Source: an uncultured Bacteroidia bacterium
GTDB taxonomy: Bacteria > Bacteroidota > Bacteroidia > Bacteroidales > ML635J-15
Direction: 5' to 3'
Length of the DNA stretch: 64,000 nt
NCBI GenBank assembly: GCA_902776565.1
Contig: CACYQN010000010.1
Span: 62,001-126,000 of the forward strand
Part shown: in pieces, positions 14,004 through 26,370 of the stretch
How the letters are laid out: every line of letters begins with the position of its first letter
Numbering within the stretch: position 1 is the first letter of the stretch
Made by a program: the position numbers and the translations under genes
The notes under the pieces: generated by a model
Database searches by the model: none
What the model was told of the DNA's origin: nothing
Seen by the model: the letters and a program-made list of their open reading frames with translations, nothing else

Positions 14004-15605
14004 TTATTTCTTCTTCAGCAACGAATTGTACAGTTTGTCGTCGCCAATGATTTCGAAAGCGCGTTTTACGGTTGGGTCCTGCTGGTTGAAGATTACCCAG
14101 AATGCTGCATTTCCCCAGATGTCGCTTGCCATCGACGACTTGATGTGATTCTTCAGATAGATTTCCTGTGCTGGTGTGGCTTTCGGTAGCGAATCGACGT
14201 TGATTTTTGCATCCTTAGCCTTTGCAAGCATAGTTTTCATAAAGTCATCTGGAACAGTGAAATTCTGTGCAAAGTTTTCCACATCCTTGTATTTCTTCTT
14301 CAGCTCATCTTTATGCTTGTCGATGTACTCCGAAATGGTCGGGAAGAAAATGTTCTTGCGCTGCAATGCAAGATGATAGTCGGAACGCAATGTGGTGTCG
14401 AGCGGAACAAAGTCGTCGGGCATAACGCCACCACCGCCGTAAACTGTTCGCTTGTATTTCAGGGTGTTGTATTTCAAACTGTCGTTGAACTTGATGCTGT
14501 CCTTGTGGTAGTATTCGCCGTGGTTGTATCGGTTGAGCAGGTCCTTGTTGTATTCTTCGTAGCTGCTGTACGGCTTCTGTATGCAACGTCCCGACGGGGT
14601 GTAGTAGCGGGCAATCGTCAGGCGGACTATTGAGCCATCTGTGAGGTTCATTTCTCTCTGTACCAATCCTTTGCCAAACGAGCGGCGACCTACGATAACG
14701 CCTCTGTCCCAGTCCTGTATTGCTCCCGATGTGATTTCGCTTGCCGATGCGGAGTTCTCGTTGATAATGACAACCAGTTTCCCGTTGCGGTTAACTTTTT
14801 CTGCCGACATGTCCTTCGAATTGTAGTCGTAGCGAGGCATTTTTTCTCCCTTGGTGTAAACGATGGATTTGTTTGGCTCTATGAAACGGCTGCAAAGTGT
14901 CACTGCCTGGTCTAGGTAGCCACCGGTGTTGTCGCTGAGGTCGAGTATGATGTTCTTTACTTTTTTCTGGGTGAAATAAGTGAATGCCGAGTCCATTTCG
15001 GCTTCAGTGGTACGTGCAAACTTGTTGAGTTTCACATATCCTACATCGCCGACAGTGTAGAACGCATCAACGCTGTGGATTGGAATTTTGTCGCGGATAA
15101 TCTCGAAGTAAAGGAGGTCTTTTTCGCCTGGACGCAGGATTCCAACGGTGACTTTTGTGCCTTTTTTGCCACGCAGACGCTTTGCAACACCTGTATTGTC
15201 GATTTTTATGCCAGCAACGACTTCGTCGTTAACCTTCACTATGCGGTCGCCCGATTTCAGTCCTACCTTTTCCGACGGACCGCCAGAAATGACATCCTGT
15301 ATTACTATGGTATCCTGTATCAGACGGAACTGTACGCCAATTCCGTCGAAACTGCCGTCGAGCTGTTCCTTCGACTTTGCAACATCGTCGGCGCTGATGT
15401 ACGCCGAGTGCGGGTCGAGTTCCTGCAGCATCTTTACGATTGCGACTTCGGTAATTTTGGCTATGTCGGCGGTGTCAACGTACATTGCATCTATGTAGTT
15501 GAGCAGGCGTTCGAATTTCTTAGCTTGCTTTATAGGTTCTGTCTGTGCGAACAATGATGCGCTAAATATCAGTACGATGGCTAATAATGAGAATATCCGT
15601 TTCAT
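14004..15605 (-). CDS. S41 family C-terminal processing peptidase
   Basis: 533 aa from the ATG at 15605, which begins a signal peptide ([21 protein letters not shown]). An in-frame extension to 15740 is rejected because it would run through the -7 element. Domains: N-terminal helical part, PDZ domain (about residues 90-170, [21 protein letters not shown]... GDRIVKVND), S41 protease core with [17 protein letters not shown] containing the nucleophile Ser and FGKGLVQ with the catalytic Lys, then a C-terminal region. Periplasmic processing of protein C-termini is the expected role. A promoter (TAACTTTG, 15623-15630) lies directly upstream and recR directly downstream. Confidence 0.93.
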
Positions 15606-15630: not shown

Positions 15631-15679
15631 AGAATTATTAACGATGGAAAATGTTGTTTTGTTGTTAAATTTGTTTTTA

Positions 15680-15712
15680 TTACGAAAAGTTTCGTTACGA
15701 AATTTTTCGTAA
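15680..15712. repeat. 33-bp direct repeat, copy downstream of the ATPase gene
   Basis: A run of TTACGAAA half-sites containing the 18-bp palindrome TTACGAAATTTTTCGTAA. It differs from the copy at 16785-16817 at only four bases (AAAG for CTTT). It ends 3 bases from the ATPase stop codon. Confidence 0.85.
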
Positions 15713-15715
15713 TAA

Positions 15716-16783
15716 CTATGAGGCGAAGTCCAAAATCCATTTCTTGAAGAACGGGTCTTCGATTTCGTAACGGTTTGAATATATCACAAGTCCCTGCTTT
15801 TGCATTTTCTTTAGTGCGCTATATATCGTACTAGTGTGCAAGTCGGTCATTGTCAATTGAGTATCCGAAGCAAGACTTTGCAAAATTTTCTTGTCGGTAC
15901 GATTCAGTCGAATCCATATTCGTTCAAAATCTAAGTTGTGTGTTTCTTCAATTTGATGTAATGCTTTGGAAAATAAGTCTGTACATTCAGGATTAATAAT
16001 TGCCGTCTGCCAGATTTGCGAAGCAAGCTGTTGCGAATAATATGGGTGACAATCGGTATAATCAAGTATTTCCTTTGTGATTTCAGTGTAATTTTGTGGC
16101 AAAATACTCTTTAACCTTGATGATATGTATTGCTCGAACTCGTTTCTTGGCAATTTGCGCAATCGCATCAGTTGTCCGAAATGGTAGAATGGTGATTTCT
16201 TCTTTTCAAAAATATCTTCCATCATCGATTCCTGGCTACCAAGCAATATATAATTGATGTTCTTTTGTTCTTGCATAATAGCACGCAATTGCTTGTCCAA
16301 ACCAGTCTCTATTTCCAGTATCTCTTGAAACTCGTCGAGAATGACAACTAATCTATTGCTTTCATTTCCAATGTTTTCTAATGTTCCTAAAACATCTTCA
16401 AGCATCACATTTGCGTTTTTTGATGGTTGGAAACTGACTTCTACAGCACCTGTCAAGGCGTTGGTATTCAATGTCGGAATTATTCTAAAGTTGGAAATTA
16501 ATCCGCGAAGTTTTTCCCGTGTATTGTGCTTGTAAACTTCAGTGAGCAGTTTTGCAGCAAAATCTTGAACCGACATAACTTTTTGCAGGTTAAGATATAT
16601 GTATTTGCGTCCCGACTGTTTCACAGCCTTCAAAACGACACTGCTCTTTCCGAAACGGCGTGGGCTTATAAGAATCAAATGGTTCGCACTATTGATAAAC
16701 TGCTTTATATAAGCCACTTCCTCAACTCTGTCGGTAAAGAAGTCGCCTTCGACTATTGTCCCGAATTTGAATGGGTTTTCCAT
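15716..16783 (-). CDS. Stand-alone ATPase_2 (archaeal-type AAA) protein with C-terminal winged helix
   Basis: 355 aa STAND/AAA-type ATPase. Walker A is SPRRFGKSSVV (about residue 40), Walker B LVVILDEFQEI (about 145), and a sensor-like YILLGSQESMM follows. The C-terminal 70 residues (RTDKKILQSLASDTQLTMTDLHTSTIYSALKKMQKQGLVI) form a winged helix and end EDPFFKKWILDFAS, a tail typical of this family. Function of the family in bacteria is largely unknown. The gene is unrelated to its neighbours. The ORF is bracketed almost exactly by 33-bp direct repeats: one begins 1 base before the ATG, the other ends 3 bases after the stop. Confidence 0.85.
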   Translation of the reverse strand: MENPFKFGTIVEGDFFTDRVEEVAYIKQFINSANHLILISPRRFGKSSVVLKAVKQSGRKYIYLNLQKVMSVQDFAAKLLTEVYKHNTREKLRGLISNFRIIPTLNTNALTGAVEVSFQPSKNANVMLEDVLGTLENIGNESNRLVVILDEFQEILEIETGLDKQLRAIMQEQKNINYILLGSQESMMEDIFEKKKSPFYHFGQLMRLRKLPRNEFEQYISSRLKSILPQNYTEITKEILDYTDCHPYYSQQLASQIWQTAIINPECTDLFSKALHQIEETHNLDFERIWIRLNRTDKKILQSLASDTQLTMTDLHTSTIYSALKKMQKQGLVIYSNRYEIEDPFFKKWILDFAS

Positions 16784-16784
16784 A

Positions 16785-16817
16785 TTACGACTTTTTTCGT
16801 TACGAAATTTTTCGTAA
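16785..16817. promoter_or_regulatory. 33-bp direct repeat / operator-like palindromes at the ATPase start
   Basis: Same repeat as 15680-15712, containing TTACGAAATTTTTCGTAA plus one additional TTACGA half-site. It lies between a -7-like TACCTTTA (minus strand, 16815-16822) and the ATG at 16783, so it spans the transcription start and translation start region. A protein bound here would block expression. The binding protein is not known. Confidence 0.65.
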
Positions 16818-16853
16818 AGGTATGGAAGATTTTATTAATGGCAAAAATTTTCT

Positions 16854-17942
16854 TCACTTTTTTATCAGTCCATCGAAAGTTTCCACCACCTTGTCTTCCC
16901 AGGCGGTAACCGAGAAGCGTTCCTCGACGGTTTGTCTGGCGTTCTTGCCAATTTCGCGGCGAAGTTGTTCTGAATCAATGAGTGCCGACAATTTTTCCAC
17001 CCACTCGTCGTCGGTGGAGGCGAGGAAGCCGTTCTTGCCTTCGTCGATAATTTCTTTGTTTACTCCAACTGGCGACATTACCACCGGCAGTTCCAGAGCC
17101 ATGCACTGCAGTCCCTTGAAACCGCACTTTCCACGGCTCCACTTGTCGTCGGGCAGGGGCATAATGCCGATGTCGAACTCGCAAAGCTCGTCGATTTCAT
17201 TTTGTGCCGACCATTGCACGATTTTGGTATCGGGGATTTCGCTTTGCCAGGTTTTGGAGTTCATTATCACTTTGAAATACACTTTGTCGCCATACTTTTC
17301 CTTGATGCGCTTGAGTACGGGATATGCGGTTTCGTAGTGCTTGAGCGTAGGTTGTGTGCCTGTCCAGCCGATGCAAATACGGTCGTGAGGTTTGCGTTCT
17401 GTCGGCTTGTGGTAGTTGGTGTTTATTACTGTCGGTAGTATGAAAATGTTGCTGTTGAATTGTTTTGCATAGTCGGCAAGATATTGGTTGCCAATGCTTA
17501 CGAGCGTAGCATACTGGCAGATTTCGTTTGTCTTTTCGGTGCGTTTCAGCCAAGCAAGGTTCTGGTTGCCTTCGCTGGTGTCGTTCAGCCAGATGGAGTC
17601 GTCGAAATCGAAAATCATTGGAACTCCGCTCTTTGCAAACTTGCGCTCGAAGATTGTCGTACCAAGCATATATGCCTCGCGATAGACGAACACAAGGTCG
17701 AAATTCTTTGCTCTGCGGACATCCTTCATCCTATGGAAGAAACTCTTTATCACGAACATAAGTTTTCCAAAATAATGTCCGTGCGAGTAGAATGTCTTGT
17801 CGTCCTTTTCGCTGATGATGTTGGAGAAAGTGACTTCGTAGCCTGCTTTTTCGAGGCGTGGCAAAAACTGCTCGATTCGGAAGCGTTGTCCGGGAGAGCG
17901 GTTAGGTCTGTGGTGTACTATGAGCAGAAGCCGTTTTGTCAC
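16854..17942 (-). CDS. Glycosyltransferase family 4-like protein
   Basis: 362 aa GT-B fold enzyme. The N-terminal Rossmann half begins KRLLLIVHHRPNRSPGQRFRIEQFLP. The C-terminal half has RICIGWTGTQPTLKHYE, FDIGIMPLPDDKWSRGKCGFKGLQCMALELPVV and PVGVNKEIIDEGKNG, matching the sugar-nucleotide-binding region of GT4 enzymes. The usual Glu of the EX7E motif is replaced in the KCGFKGLQ stretch. Acceptor and sugar are unknown; cell-surface polysaccharide is likely because the next gene upstream is another GT4. Confidence 0.85.
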   Translation of the reverse strand: MTKRLLLIVHHRPNRSPGQRFRIEQFLPRLEKAGYEVTFSNIISEKDDKTFYSHGHYFGKLMFVIKSFFHRMKDVRRAKNFDLVFVYREAYMLGTTIFERKFAKSGVPMIFDFDDSIWLNDTSEGNQNLAWLKRTEKTNEICQYATLVSIGNQYLADYAKQFNSNIFILPTVINTNYHKPTERKPHDRICIGWTGTQPTLKHYETAYPVLKRIKEKYGDKVYFKVIMNSKTWQSEIPDTKIVQWSAQNEIDELCEFDIGIMPLPDDKWSRGKCGFKGLQCMALELPVVMSPVGVNKEIIDEGKNGFLASTDDEWVEKLSALIDSEQLRREIGKNARQTVEERFSVTAWEDKVVETFDGLIKK

Positions 17943-24710: not shown

Positions 24711-24808
24711 TGTTATTTGATGATTTGATTTGTAGCGACGTGGCGCGCCGCGTCGCCACTAATTATCAATTATCCATTGTTAATTATCAATTGTCCATTA
24801 TCCATTCT
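24711..24808. repeat. Composite intergenic palindromic repeat, copy in the ABC operon (1)
   Basis: A TTTGATGATTTGATTTG stretch leads into a palindrome, GTAGCGACGTGGCGCGCCG... (24732-24759, arms GCGACG(T/C)GGC and GCC(G/A)CGTCGC), then AATTATCAATTATCCATTG-type tandem words. The same three-part order occurs at 25700-25805. It separates the ATPase and permease genes. Confidence 0.75.
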
Positions 24809-25684
24809 TTAATATTTCCCCGTCAACCCAATAAATGCATCCTCCAAATTAACCTTTTGTGAAGAAAAATCCTCGAAAGCAACACCTTTTGCCGTCAACC
24901 GTGATTTCAGTTCGTCGGCATCCAGGAACGAGCCCAGTTCTACATTGCCACGGATTACCGTAGGATGATAAACATCTGCCATTTCGGGCAAAGTGCAGTT
25001 TTCTGCCAACTTGAAATTGTACTGACGATATTTGCCAAGCAATTCGTCAACAGGCATCTGCAAGATAATCTTGCCATAGTCCATCATTATGCAGTCGTCG
25101 ATGAGCCGCTCCATATCCTGTATGATGTGCGATGTCAGGAAAACTGTCTTTCCCGACGATTTCACAAAATCGCGAAGGTAGTCGATGAACAGACGACGGT
25201 AGCCAGGGTCAAGTCCGAGCGAAAAGTCGTCCAGTATCAGCAACTTGGGATTCTGCGCCATCAAAAGTCCGAGTGCCACCTGTGAGCGCTGTCCGCACGA
25301 CATTCGCGAAATGCGCTGGTTCGGTGCAACTTTCAGCATCGACATCAGGTCGTAATACACATTCTTGTCCCATTGCGGATAGAATCGGGCATAAAAGCGT
25401 TCTATCTGGCGGATAGTCATAAAGCTGTACTGAATATGCCCTTCGATGAGCAGACCGATGTCGCGGCTAAGTTCAGGATCCATACCGATTATGTTCTGCC
25501 CGAAAATACGGCATTCGCCGCTTCGTGGCTTCAGAAAACCGCTGAGAATGTTTATCGTCGTGGTCTTGCCGGTTCCGTTCTTGCCCAAAAGTCCAAGTAT
25601 GCGACCTTGTGGCACGCTAAAGCTAAGGTTTTCGTATATGCACCTTTTGCCGTAGTAATGGGTTAGGTTTATGCAATCAATCAT
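24809..25684 (-). CDS. ABC transporter ATP-binding protein
   Basis: 291 aa. Walker A GLLGKNGTGKTTTINILSG (about residue 33), an unusual ABC signature MSCGQRSQVALGL, and Walker B LLILDDFSLGLDP, where the usual catalytic Glu after the Asp is an Asp. The H-loop is FLTSHIIQDMERL. The C-terminal 80 residues (KLAENCTLPEMADV... VNLEDAFIGLTGKY) match DrrA/CcmA-type exporters. Partner genes are the downstream permease and DUF4857. Two repeat elements on either side may lower coupling within the operon. Confidence 0.88.
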   Translation of the reverse strand: MIDCINLTHYYGKRCIYENLSFSVPQGRILGLLGKNGTGKTTTINILSGFLKPRSGECRIFGQNIIGMDPELSRDIGLLIEGHIQYSFMTIRQIERFYARFYPQWDKNVYYDLMSMLKVAPNQRISRMSCGQRSQVALGLLMAQNPKLLILDDFSLGLDPGYRRLFIDYLRDFVKSSGKTVFLTSHIIQDMERLIDDCIMMDYGKIILQMPVDELLGKYRQYNFKLAENCTLPEMADVYHPTVIRGNVELGSFLDADELKSRLTAKGVAFEDFSSQKVNLEDAFIGLTGKY

Positions 25685-25699
25685 GGGAGATTCGATGAT

Positions 25700-25805
25700 T
25701 CAAAGATTTGATAATTTGAAAATTCGATGATTTGATGATTTGATTTGTAGCGACGCGCCATGGCACGTCGCTACAGATTATCAATTATCCATTATTCATT
25801 GTCAA
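25700..25805. repeat. Composite intergenic palindromic repeat, copy in the ABC operon (2)
   Basis: Repeated GATTTGATAATTTG / CGATGATTTGATGATTTG words come first. Then follows a 30-bp palindrome with one mismatch (25746-25775, arms TGTAGCGACGCGCCA and TGGCACGTCGCTACA), then ATTATCAATTATCCATTATTC. It lies directly between the lipoprotein and ATPase genes. Confidence 0.75.
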
Positions 25806-26370
25806 TTACATTATATTCCACCGCATCTATATGATAGAACGACAAATACGCCTTGCCTTCCTTTGCATTGCGTTCTGCAATTTTGGCGCGGAAATCGGCA
25901 ATGCGAGCTTCGGGGGTATTGGCTGTTTCCTGACGCGACTGCTTTTCGGCTCCGCAACCCTCGGCACCTTCGCCGTGCTGTTCCATTCCTGCGAGTTCCT
26001 TTTCCCATTCGTTCAGGTAGTCCTCGTCAATGCGCTCCTCTCGGACAATGCCCTTTACATAAACAACATGCTCAAGACATTCCTGCTTGAAAGGTTCGCC
26101 AAGTTCAACACTTTCAACACGCAAAATCTGCGTATCGTCGCTACCCATAAGGAACATCTTGCGTCCGCTGTGACGGCACAAATGCATACACACGCCCTCG
26201 ACCTCAACCGTATCGCCGACCATTGCATCAATCTTTGCAAGCGCATCGTCAACCTGCATTACCTTTGCTTCGGGAGCTTCTTGTTCAACCTCGGCATTTT
26301 TCTTTCCATCGCAGGAAAAAAGAGCAAATGCCATCATTATTACTGCTAAAAGTTCAAATATTCTTTTCAT
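25792..26370 (-). CDS. Lipoprotein with CxHLCRHSGRK motif, unknown function
   Basis: 192 aa. The lipoprotein signal ends FALFSC (Cys at about residue 20). A small OB-fold-like domain follows (GDTVEVEGVCMHLCRHSGRKMFLMGSDDTQ... VVYVKGIVREERI), then a Glu-rich helical tail with QHGEGAEGCGAEKQ. The Cys and His cluster CMHLCRH could bind metal or form a disulfide, but neither is shown. It is first in the operon with the ABC ATPase, permease and DUF4857. Confidence 0.7.
   Translation of the reverse strand: MKRIFELLAVIMMAFALFSCDGKKNAEVEQEAPEAKVMQVDDALAKIDAMVGDTVEVEGVCMHLCRHSGRKMFLMGSDDTQILRVESVELGEPFKQECLEHVVYVKGIVREERIDEDYLNEWEKELAGMEQHGEGAEGCGAEKQSRQETANTPEARIADFRAKIAERNAKEGKAYLSFYHIDAVEYNVIDNE

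Follow-up and report, generated by a model that had tools for sequence, protein, structure and literature searches.

An ATPase gene bracketed by 33-bp direct repeats is a candidate single-gene mobile cassette in Bacteroidales

The window analyzed here, a 64,000-nucleotide stretch of DNA from an uncultured Bacteroidia bacterium, contains an ATPase gene enclosed by two copies of a 33-bp direct repeat (R). Because the block appears to have been transferred alone, because its site is found empty with a single R and is occupied in a scattered fashion among related genomes, and because its architecture is shared across the gene family, we favor, with somewhat better than even confidence, the interpretation that R-gene-R forms a mobile cassette of one gene, with ends that are both the predicted binding sites of the ATPase and its operator, and that it is subject to recombination between the two Rs. 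The first-pass annotation had suggested a mobile unit, a duplicated operator, or both; empty sites and block transfer support the former, the frequent occurrence of an upstream R only fits an operator, and “both” describes the data best.

The repeats and the ATPase

The 3′ copy of R (TTACGAAAAGTTTCGTTACGAAATTTTTCGTAA) is located at positions 15680-15712 and the promoter-side copy (TTACGACTTTTTTCGTTACGAAATTTTTCGTAA) at 16785-16817, with 4 mismatches between them, and the only substantial gene between the copies (15716..16783, minus strand) encodes a 355 aa ATPase. The bracketing described from the first reading of the sequence is exact: the direct repeats are identical at 29/33 positions, a single base (16784) separates the promoter-side copy from the ATG (16783-16781, minus strand), and the stop codon is followed by three bases (15713-15715) and then the 3′ copy. 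The palindromes reported within both repeats are likewise present, as two tandem ACGA-N6-TCGT dyads in each copy (15682-15695 and 15697-15710; 16787-16800 and 16802-16815), and R as a whole follows the pattern TTACGA-N6-TCGT-W-ACGA-N6-TCGTAA, i.e., two 14-bp dyads with a spacing of 15 bp. The near self-complementarity of R leaves its orientation only weakly defined, and the two copies also match each other as inverted repeats (83%).

A chance origin of the repeats was excluded by the expectation for the window, a genome-wide search and a bracket score. Allowing ≤2 mismatches, TTACGAAANNTTTCGTAA occurs three times in the window, always inside the two R copies (chance expectation, 0.01). The exact R palindrome is present only at this locus in the 3.36-Mb genome, and a search of that whole genome with the full 30-bp pattern returned only these two copies (backward control, 0). 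The dyads of the window's R score 22 at lag 15, a value reached by 0/30 shuffles. The bracket score of the ATPase gene (26) ranks second among the 44 ORFs of the window, the rest scoring 6-13 except for an ABC-transporter gene (54). Bracketing alone was rejected as proof of mobility because this ABC-transporter ATPase gene (24809-25684) is also bracketed, by copies of a dispersed repeat at 24715-24792 and 25730-25807. The dispersed repeat reads GATTTGATTTGTAGCGACG...CGTCGC...ATTATCAATTATCCATTGTTAATTATC, and runs similar to its TCAATTATCCATTGTC adjoin several ATPase paralogs.

By sequence and fold, the ATPase is an ordinary member of PF01637. It matches the Pfam ATPase_2 profile with E=6.6e-11 and 42.9 bits, above the gathering cutoff of 33.2, contains Walker A (SPRRFGKSS) and Walker B (VVILDEF) motifs, and has R42, R43, G45, K46, D150 and E151 in invariant alignment columns. 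In an AF2 model (pLDDT 89), the AAA+ core is followed by a C-terminal winged helix (residues about 295-354), which is predicted to be the likely DNA reader, and the overall fold is that of SSO1545-like PF01637 proteins. A structure search with the model placed PDB 2qen (Z 23.7, rmsd 3.8, 322 residues) and 2fna (Z 23.5, rmsd 3.6, 323 residues) ahead of the Orc1/Cdc6-DNA complex 2qby (Z 17.5). PADLOC gave only weak, partial matches (PDC-S01, 3.7e-6 over 60 aa; PDC-S27, 2.2e-4), too little to read the ATPase as an anti-phage defense protein. Scans of the ATPase, the only substantial gene product of the cassette, with Pfam, NCBIfam and PHROGs detected no transposase domain. ATPase_2 genes, to which no function has been assigned, are often present in multiple copies in these Bacteroidales, and the genome of the window contains 14 matches to the ATPase protein.

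Occupied sites, empty sites and exchange of the block

The block lies between genes encoding an S41 peptidase on the left (14004..15605, minus strand; PF03572, E=5.4e-50) and a group 1 glycosyltransferase on the right (16854..17942, minus strand; PF00534, E=1.2e-9). Using orthologs of the peptidase as the anchor for occupied and empty sites, with the glycosyltransferase gene as the other flank, we read this junction in ten genomes, plus one more (G005) by eye. The genome of the window (G000), G022 and G023 carry R-gene-R. The first-pass annotation had proposed looking in related genomes for a gene-free site with a single 33-bp repeat, and exactly this state was found in six siblings from the rumen (G007, G017, G002, G014, G016 and G021) and, by eye in the fetched sequence L203, in G005 as a seventh. 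The two states that it had named as arguing against a mobile unit, paired repeats without the gene and the gene without repeats, were not seen at this site. The junction of G006 is without R; there (L145), a different palindrome, CGACTTCTCCGAAGTCG, is present in several spaced copies where the siblings carry R.

The comparison genomes are mostly metagenome assemblies, one per species, such that an empty allele could reflect the assembler's choice of strain; this is unlikely to be the general cause, because empty sites recur in several genomes and in four repeat families. The S41 tree assigns G000 and G022 to separate clades, each of which also includes empty genomes; in the sequences compared, occupancy of the site is thus scattered and in conflict with the tree of its flank.

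A block spanning 15649..16824 differs between G000 and G022 by only 8 mismatches in 1176 bp (99.3% identical), vs. a divergence of 13-27% across the S41 gene and the intergenic flank, and about 85% identity in the flanking gene. The near-identity ends 7 bp outside the right R and 31 bp outside the left R, in a stretch that is conserved among most siblings, and the left breakpoint of the transfer is resolved to no better than 31 bp. The alignments indicate that the block was passed by itself, and recently, between the two species. Given that one site exists in both occupied and empty form and that the transfer was independent of the flanks, we consider it highly probable that the R-gene-R block is a mobile or exchangeable unit.

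Movement between unrelated places is suggested by gene pairs that are 88-95% identical and have no detectable similarity in their flanks, some of which are short (e.g., L070/L075, L087/L097 and L086/L097). Homology in such pairs extends from just before the promoter box through the stop codon, indicating that what relocates is a unit of about 1.1 kb, in most cases one that has no downstream R. In L088, the left flank of L086 is joined to the right flank of L087, an arrangement that may be an assembly chimera. The window's R family occupies ≤2-3 places per genome with ≤1 intact gene, and there is therefore no sign of an increase in copy number.

A second genomic site bears on whether R or the gene came first. 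A lone R is present there in G022 and G006 and missing in G023. At C36 of G006, the last 29 codons of such an ATPase gene remain together with one R, and the lone R of G022 is preceded by TTCATAATCC, which is close to the join between gene end and R in the G006 remnant (CTCATAATTC) and looks like the last bases of a gene. Because G023 represents an R-free state and G022 retains this apparent remnant, the lone R at the second site fits a scar rather than a pre-existing target, which suggests that R arrives together with the gene unit. Alternatively, R could have been in the host first, as a regulatory or attB-like site into which the gene was inserted in the manner of integrating elements. A lone R at the S41-glycosyltransferase junction of most siblings, and the filling of that site by near-identical cassettes in two separate lineages, are what such a target would produce; however, R is absent from the other 15 members of the genus, as it is from 5 genomes that belong to other genera of the family, the second site displays both the R-free state and a lone R with an apparent gene remnant, and every paralog has its own R. 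We consider an older host site improbable.

A probable operator and an architecture shared by the family

The outer edge of the promoter-side R is overlapped by TAccTTTa (16816..16823, minus strand), one mismatch from the Bacteroidetes -7 box TAnnTTTG, which, from established knowledge of Bacteroidetes promoters, we take to be the promoter of the ATPase gene. TAnnTTTG occurs ≤75 nt upstream in 63/80 homologs vs. 10/313 background windows. By inspection, nearly all of the 80 homologs from other genomes have a dyad element just upstream of the start codon; the strict dyad pattern is found upstream in 58/80, with a downstream copy too in 11/80, vs. 1 match in 407 kb of other flank, and most homologs in wider relatives keep the upstream R only. 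The promoter-side R is therefore a good candidate for the gene's own operator, and its position, dyad architecture and the fold of the protein make it probable that the ATPase binds R.

A role for R solely in the transcript, as a terminator or a stabilizer of the mRNA end, would agree with the folding of the 3′ copy into a long RNA hairpin (-14.8 kcal/mol, z -5.4). The promoter-side copy, however, folds weakly (-7.8), a search for terminator-like sites with a T-run gave none, and the most constant feature is the pair of dyads, spaced at 15 bp, that precedes the start codon, and we consider this role highly improbable. An Rfam search returned only sub-threshold matches.

The first-pass annotation had proposed searching for the repeat beside other ATPase_2 genes. 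Repeats do accompany such genes, each paralog with its own; the full pattern of the window's R occurs nowhere else in its genome. Both sides are flanked in the paralogs L007, L015, L017 and L018 of this genome and L036, L037 and L044 of sibling genomes. The L007 repeat (TGCGAAAAATTTCGCAACG...) has a layout like that of the window's R and, in part, a similar sequence; those of L015, L017, L018 and L037 are unlike it. For L007, which has unrelated surroundings and a different R, a single-R empty site is present in G007, and the boundary R and promoter R of the unit are separate copies. For L018 (unrelated R), single-R empty sites occur in G016, G002, G023 and G005; in the latter two, the sequence on either side matches that of the occupied site, and R is one 14-bp unit short. 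For L037 (unrelated R), G000, G016 and G023 have a single R and G002 and G007 are occupied, with about 98 extra bp on the left side of the empty site. Empty sites of L010, L011 and L013 are untidy, and no clean single-R empty site was found for L015 or L017. Together with the window's family, then, L007, L018 and L037 bring to four the repeat families for which sequence comparison shows single-R empty sites.

The main rival to a mobile cassette is passive loss from a duplicated operator: the ATPase acts as its own repressor through R on both sides, the direct Rs recombine or slip, and the gene spreads by ordinary horizontal transfer and homologous recombination. R does overlap the promoter in nearly all homologs and is often missing downstream, the modeled fold would suit a DNA-binding regulator, and the shortened L018 junctions of G023 and G005 are what slippage would give. 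A duplicated operator alone, however, leaves unexplained why the match between G000 and G022 breaks off near each repeat, why closely related genes lie in unrelated places, and why L007 has a boundary R besides its promoter R, and we regard it as a rather unlikely account of the whole. Counting against a mobile cassette are the lack of a recombinase or transposase in the unit, the presence of a downstream R in just 11/80 homologs, and the untidiness of some paralog empty sites. No target-site duplication was evident by eye outside R at occupied sites of three families.

The paired-dyad arrangement was compared with shuffled sequences in 33 family members (30 shuffles each, spacings of 10-23 bp allowed). 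In 20/33 members the score beat every shuffle, and in 19 of these 20 the lag was exactly 15 bp, although several members are interrelated and do not represent 19 independent events. Tandem 14-bp dyads at 15-bp spacing beside the promoter, with a sequence that differs per lineage, are thus an architecture shared across the family. We do not extend it to other phyla because eight distant loci (seven plasmid records and one phage-labeled) had no 15-bp dyads above shuffles. Carriage by plasmids or phages was considered and set aside, as these yielded only distant homologs (≤27% identity among the matches listed). One of them, L206 on plasmid pSD of Geobacter anodireducens, is flanked on both sides by a roughly 30-bp direct repeat, CTATTTTGTCCACATGGACGGATTAGG, and the plasmid has two such matches.

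Several observations at individual loci are recorded here. Residue 328, where the predicted recognition helix ends, is Q in proteins whose sites are of the TTACGA type, whereas M, V, C, I or S mostly takes its place in those with GCGA-type sites. This possible covariation of site and protein was read by eye from an alignment; relatedness confounds it, and we do not use it as evidence. The L018 site of G007 (L197, near 664-683) lacks R and contains a different short palindrome, CCGCAATTTTGCGG, which may be the scar of a further family. L011 (G000:C16:70862-71719) stops 3 bp ahead of the ATG of the next gene; because that gene has a TAnnTTTG box at this place in genomes empty at the site (L188 and L189), the L011 unit seems to have replaced its promoter and may be co-transcribed with its neighbor. 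At L076 and L101, TTGATTATATTTG occurs before R and again right after the stop codon, beside the promoter of the same downstream gene, a possible target duplication at a promoter box.

A proposed cassette and its relation to known systems

In the mechanism that we propose, each R is a dyad pair that is most likely bound by the Orc1/Cdc6-like ATPase through its winged helix. The promoter-side R, covering the presumed transcription start, would act as the operator, and both Rs would serve as cassette ends, between which recombination would remove the gene and leave one R; that R-R recombination is how the gene is lost seems likely. Gain would occur when a block enters a lone-R site by transfer. 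Excision and insertion could be the work of the ATPase together with host enzymes, or of a recombinase that acts in trans, and participation of the ATPase itself is a tentative suggestion. We class the block as a mobile gene cassette, a known kind of element, and it could be moved by a familiar enzyme supplied in trans.

More speculatively, Bacteroidales may harbor a class of minimal, transposase-free elements, each consisting of one Orc1/Cdc6-like ATPase and paired-dyad sites that double as operator and recombination ends, with lineage-specific ATPase-site pairs in which the ATPase joins the ends when the element is excised and when it enters a lone site. We found no description of such ATPase cassettes in the open-licence literature searched. 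The comparison offers a testable role for many multi-copy ATPase_2 genes, that of mobile cassettes that each have cognate DNA sites; it also specifies the predicted binding sites (14-bp dyads, 15 bp apart), and it makes lone-repeat scars a record of past cassette residence. If the ATPase does act on its own ends, it would constitute a recombination system without a known recombinase.

The closest structural relatives are archaeal AAA+ ATPases of the SSO1545/PAB2304 type (PF01637; PDB 2fna and 2qen), which share the full-length fold (Z 23.5-23.7 over 322-323 residues) and the profile match over positions 13-349, but only 16-20% identity; to our knowledge, repeat-bracketed cassette behavior is not known for these proteins, to which the ATPase is likened here by fold and profile. 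Orc1/Cdc6 initiators bind repeats near their own genes. They have the same AAA+ and winged-helix arrangement (Z 17.5 to the DNA-bound structure), but are 13% identical, there is no evidence of an initiator role for the cassette ATPase, and the cassette's sites bracket the gene, one being lost with it. The transposition ATPases TnsC, MuB and IstB belong to the same AAA+ class and act on DNA in mobile elements (TnsC structures, Z 14-16); they work, however, with a transposase of their own element, which the ATPase cassette lacks. Integron gene cassettes are alike in outline, consisting of a single gene with recombination-site-like repeats and having an empty state that retains one site. The ATPase unit, whose R has inverted box-like halves, differs in standing alone rather than in an array, in having no integrase and no demonstrated attC core, in the distinct repeat sequence of each ATPase family, and in bringing its own promoter-side repeat. 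Finally, although R is only 33 bp and the unit has one gene and neither reverse transcriptase nor integrase, it shares with LTR elements and solo LTRs both terminal direct repeats and a mode of loss that leaves one repeat behind.
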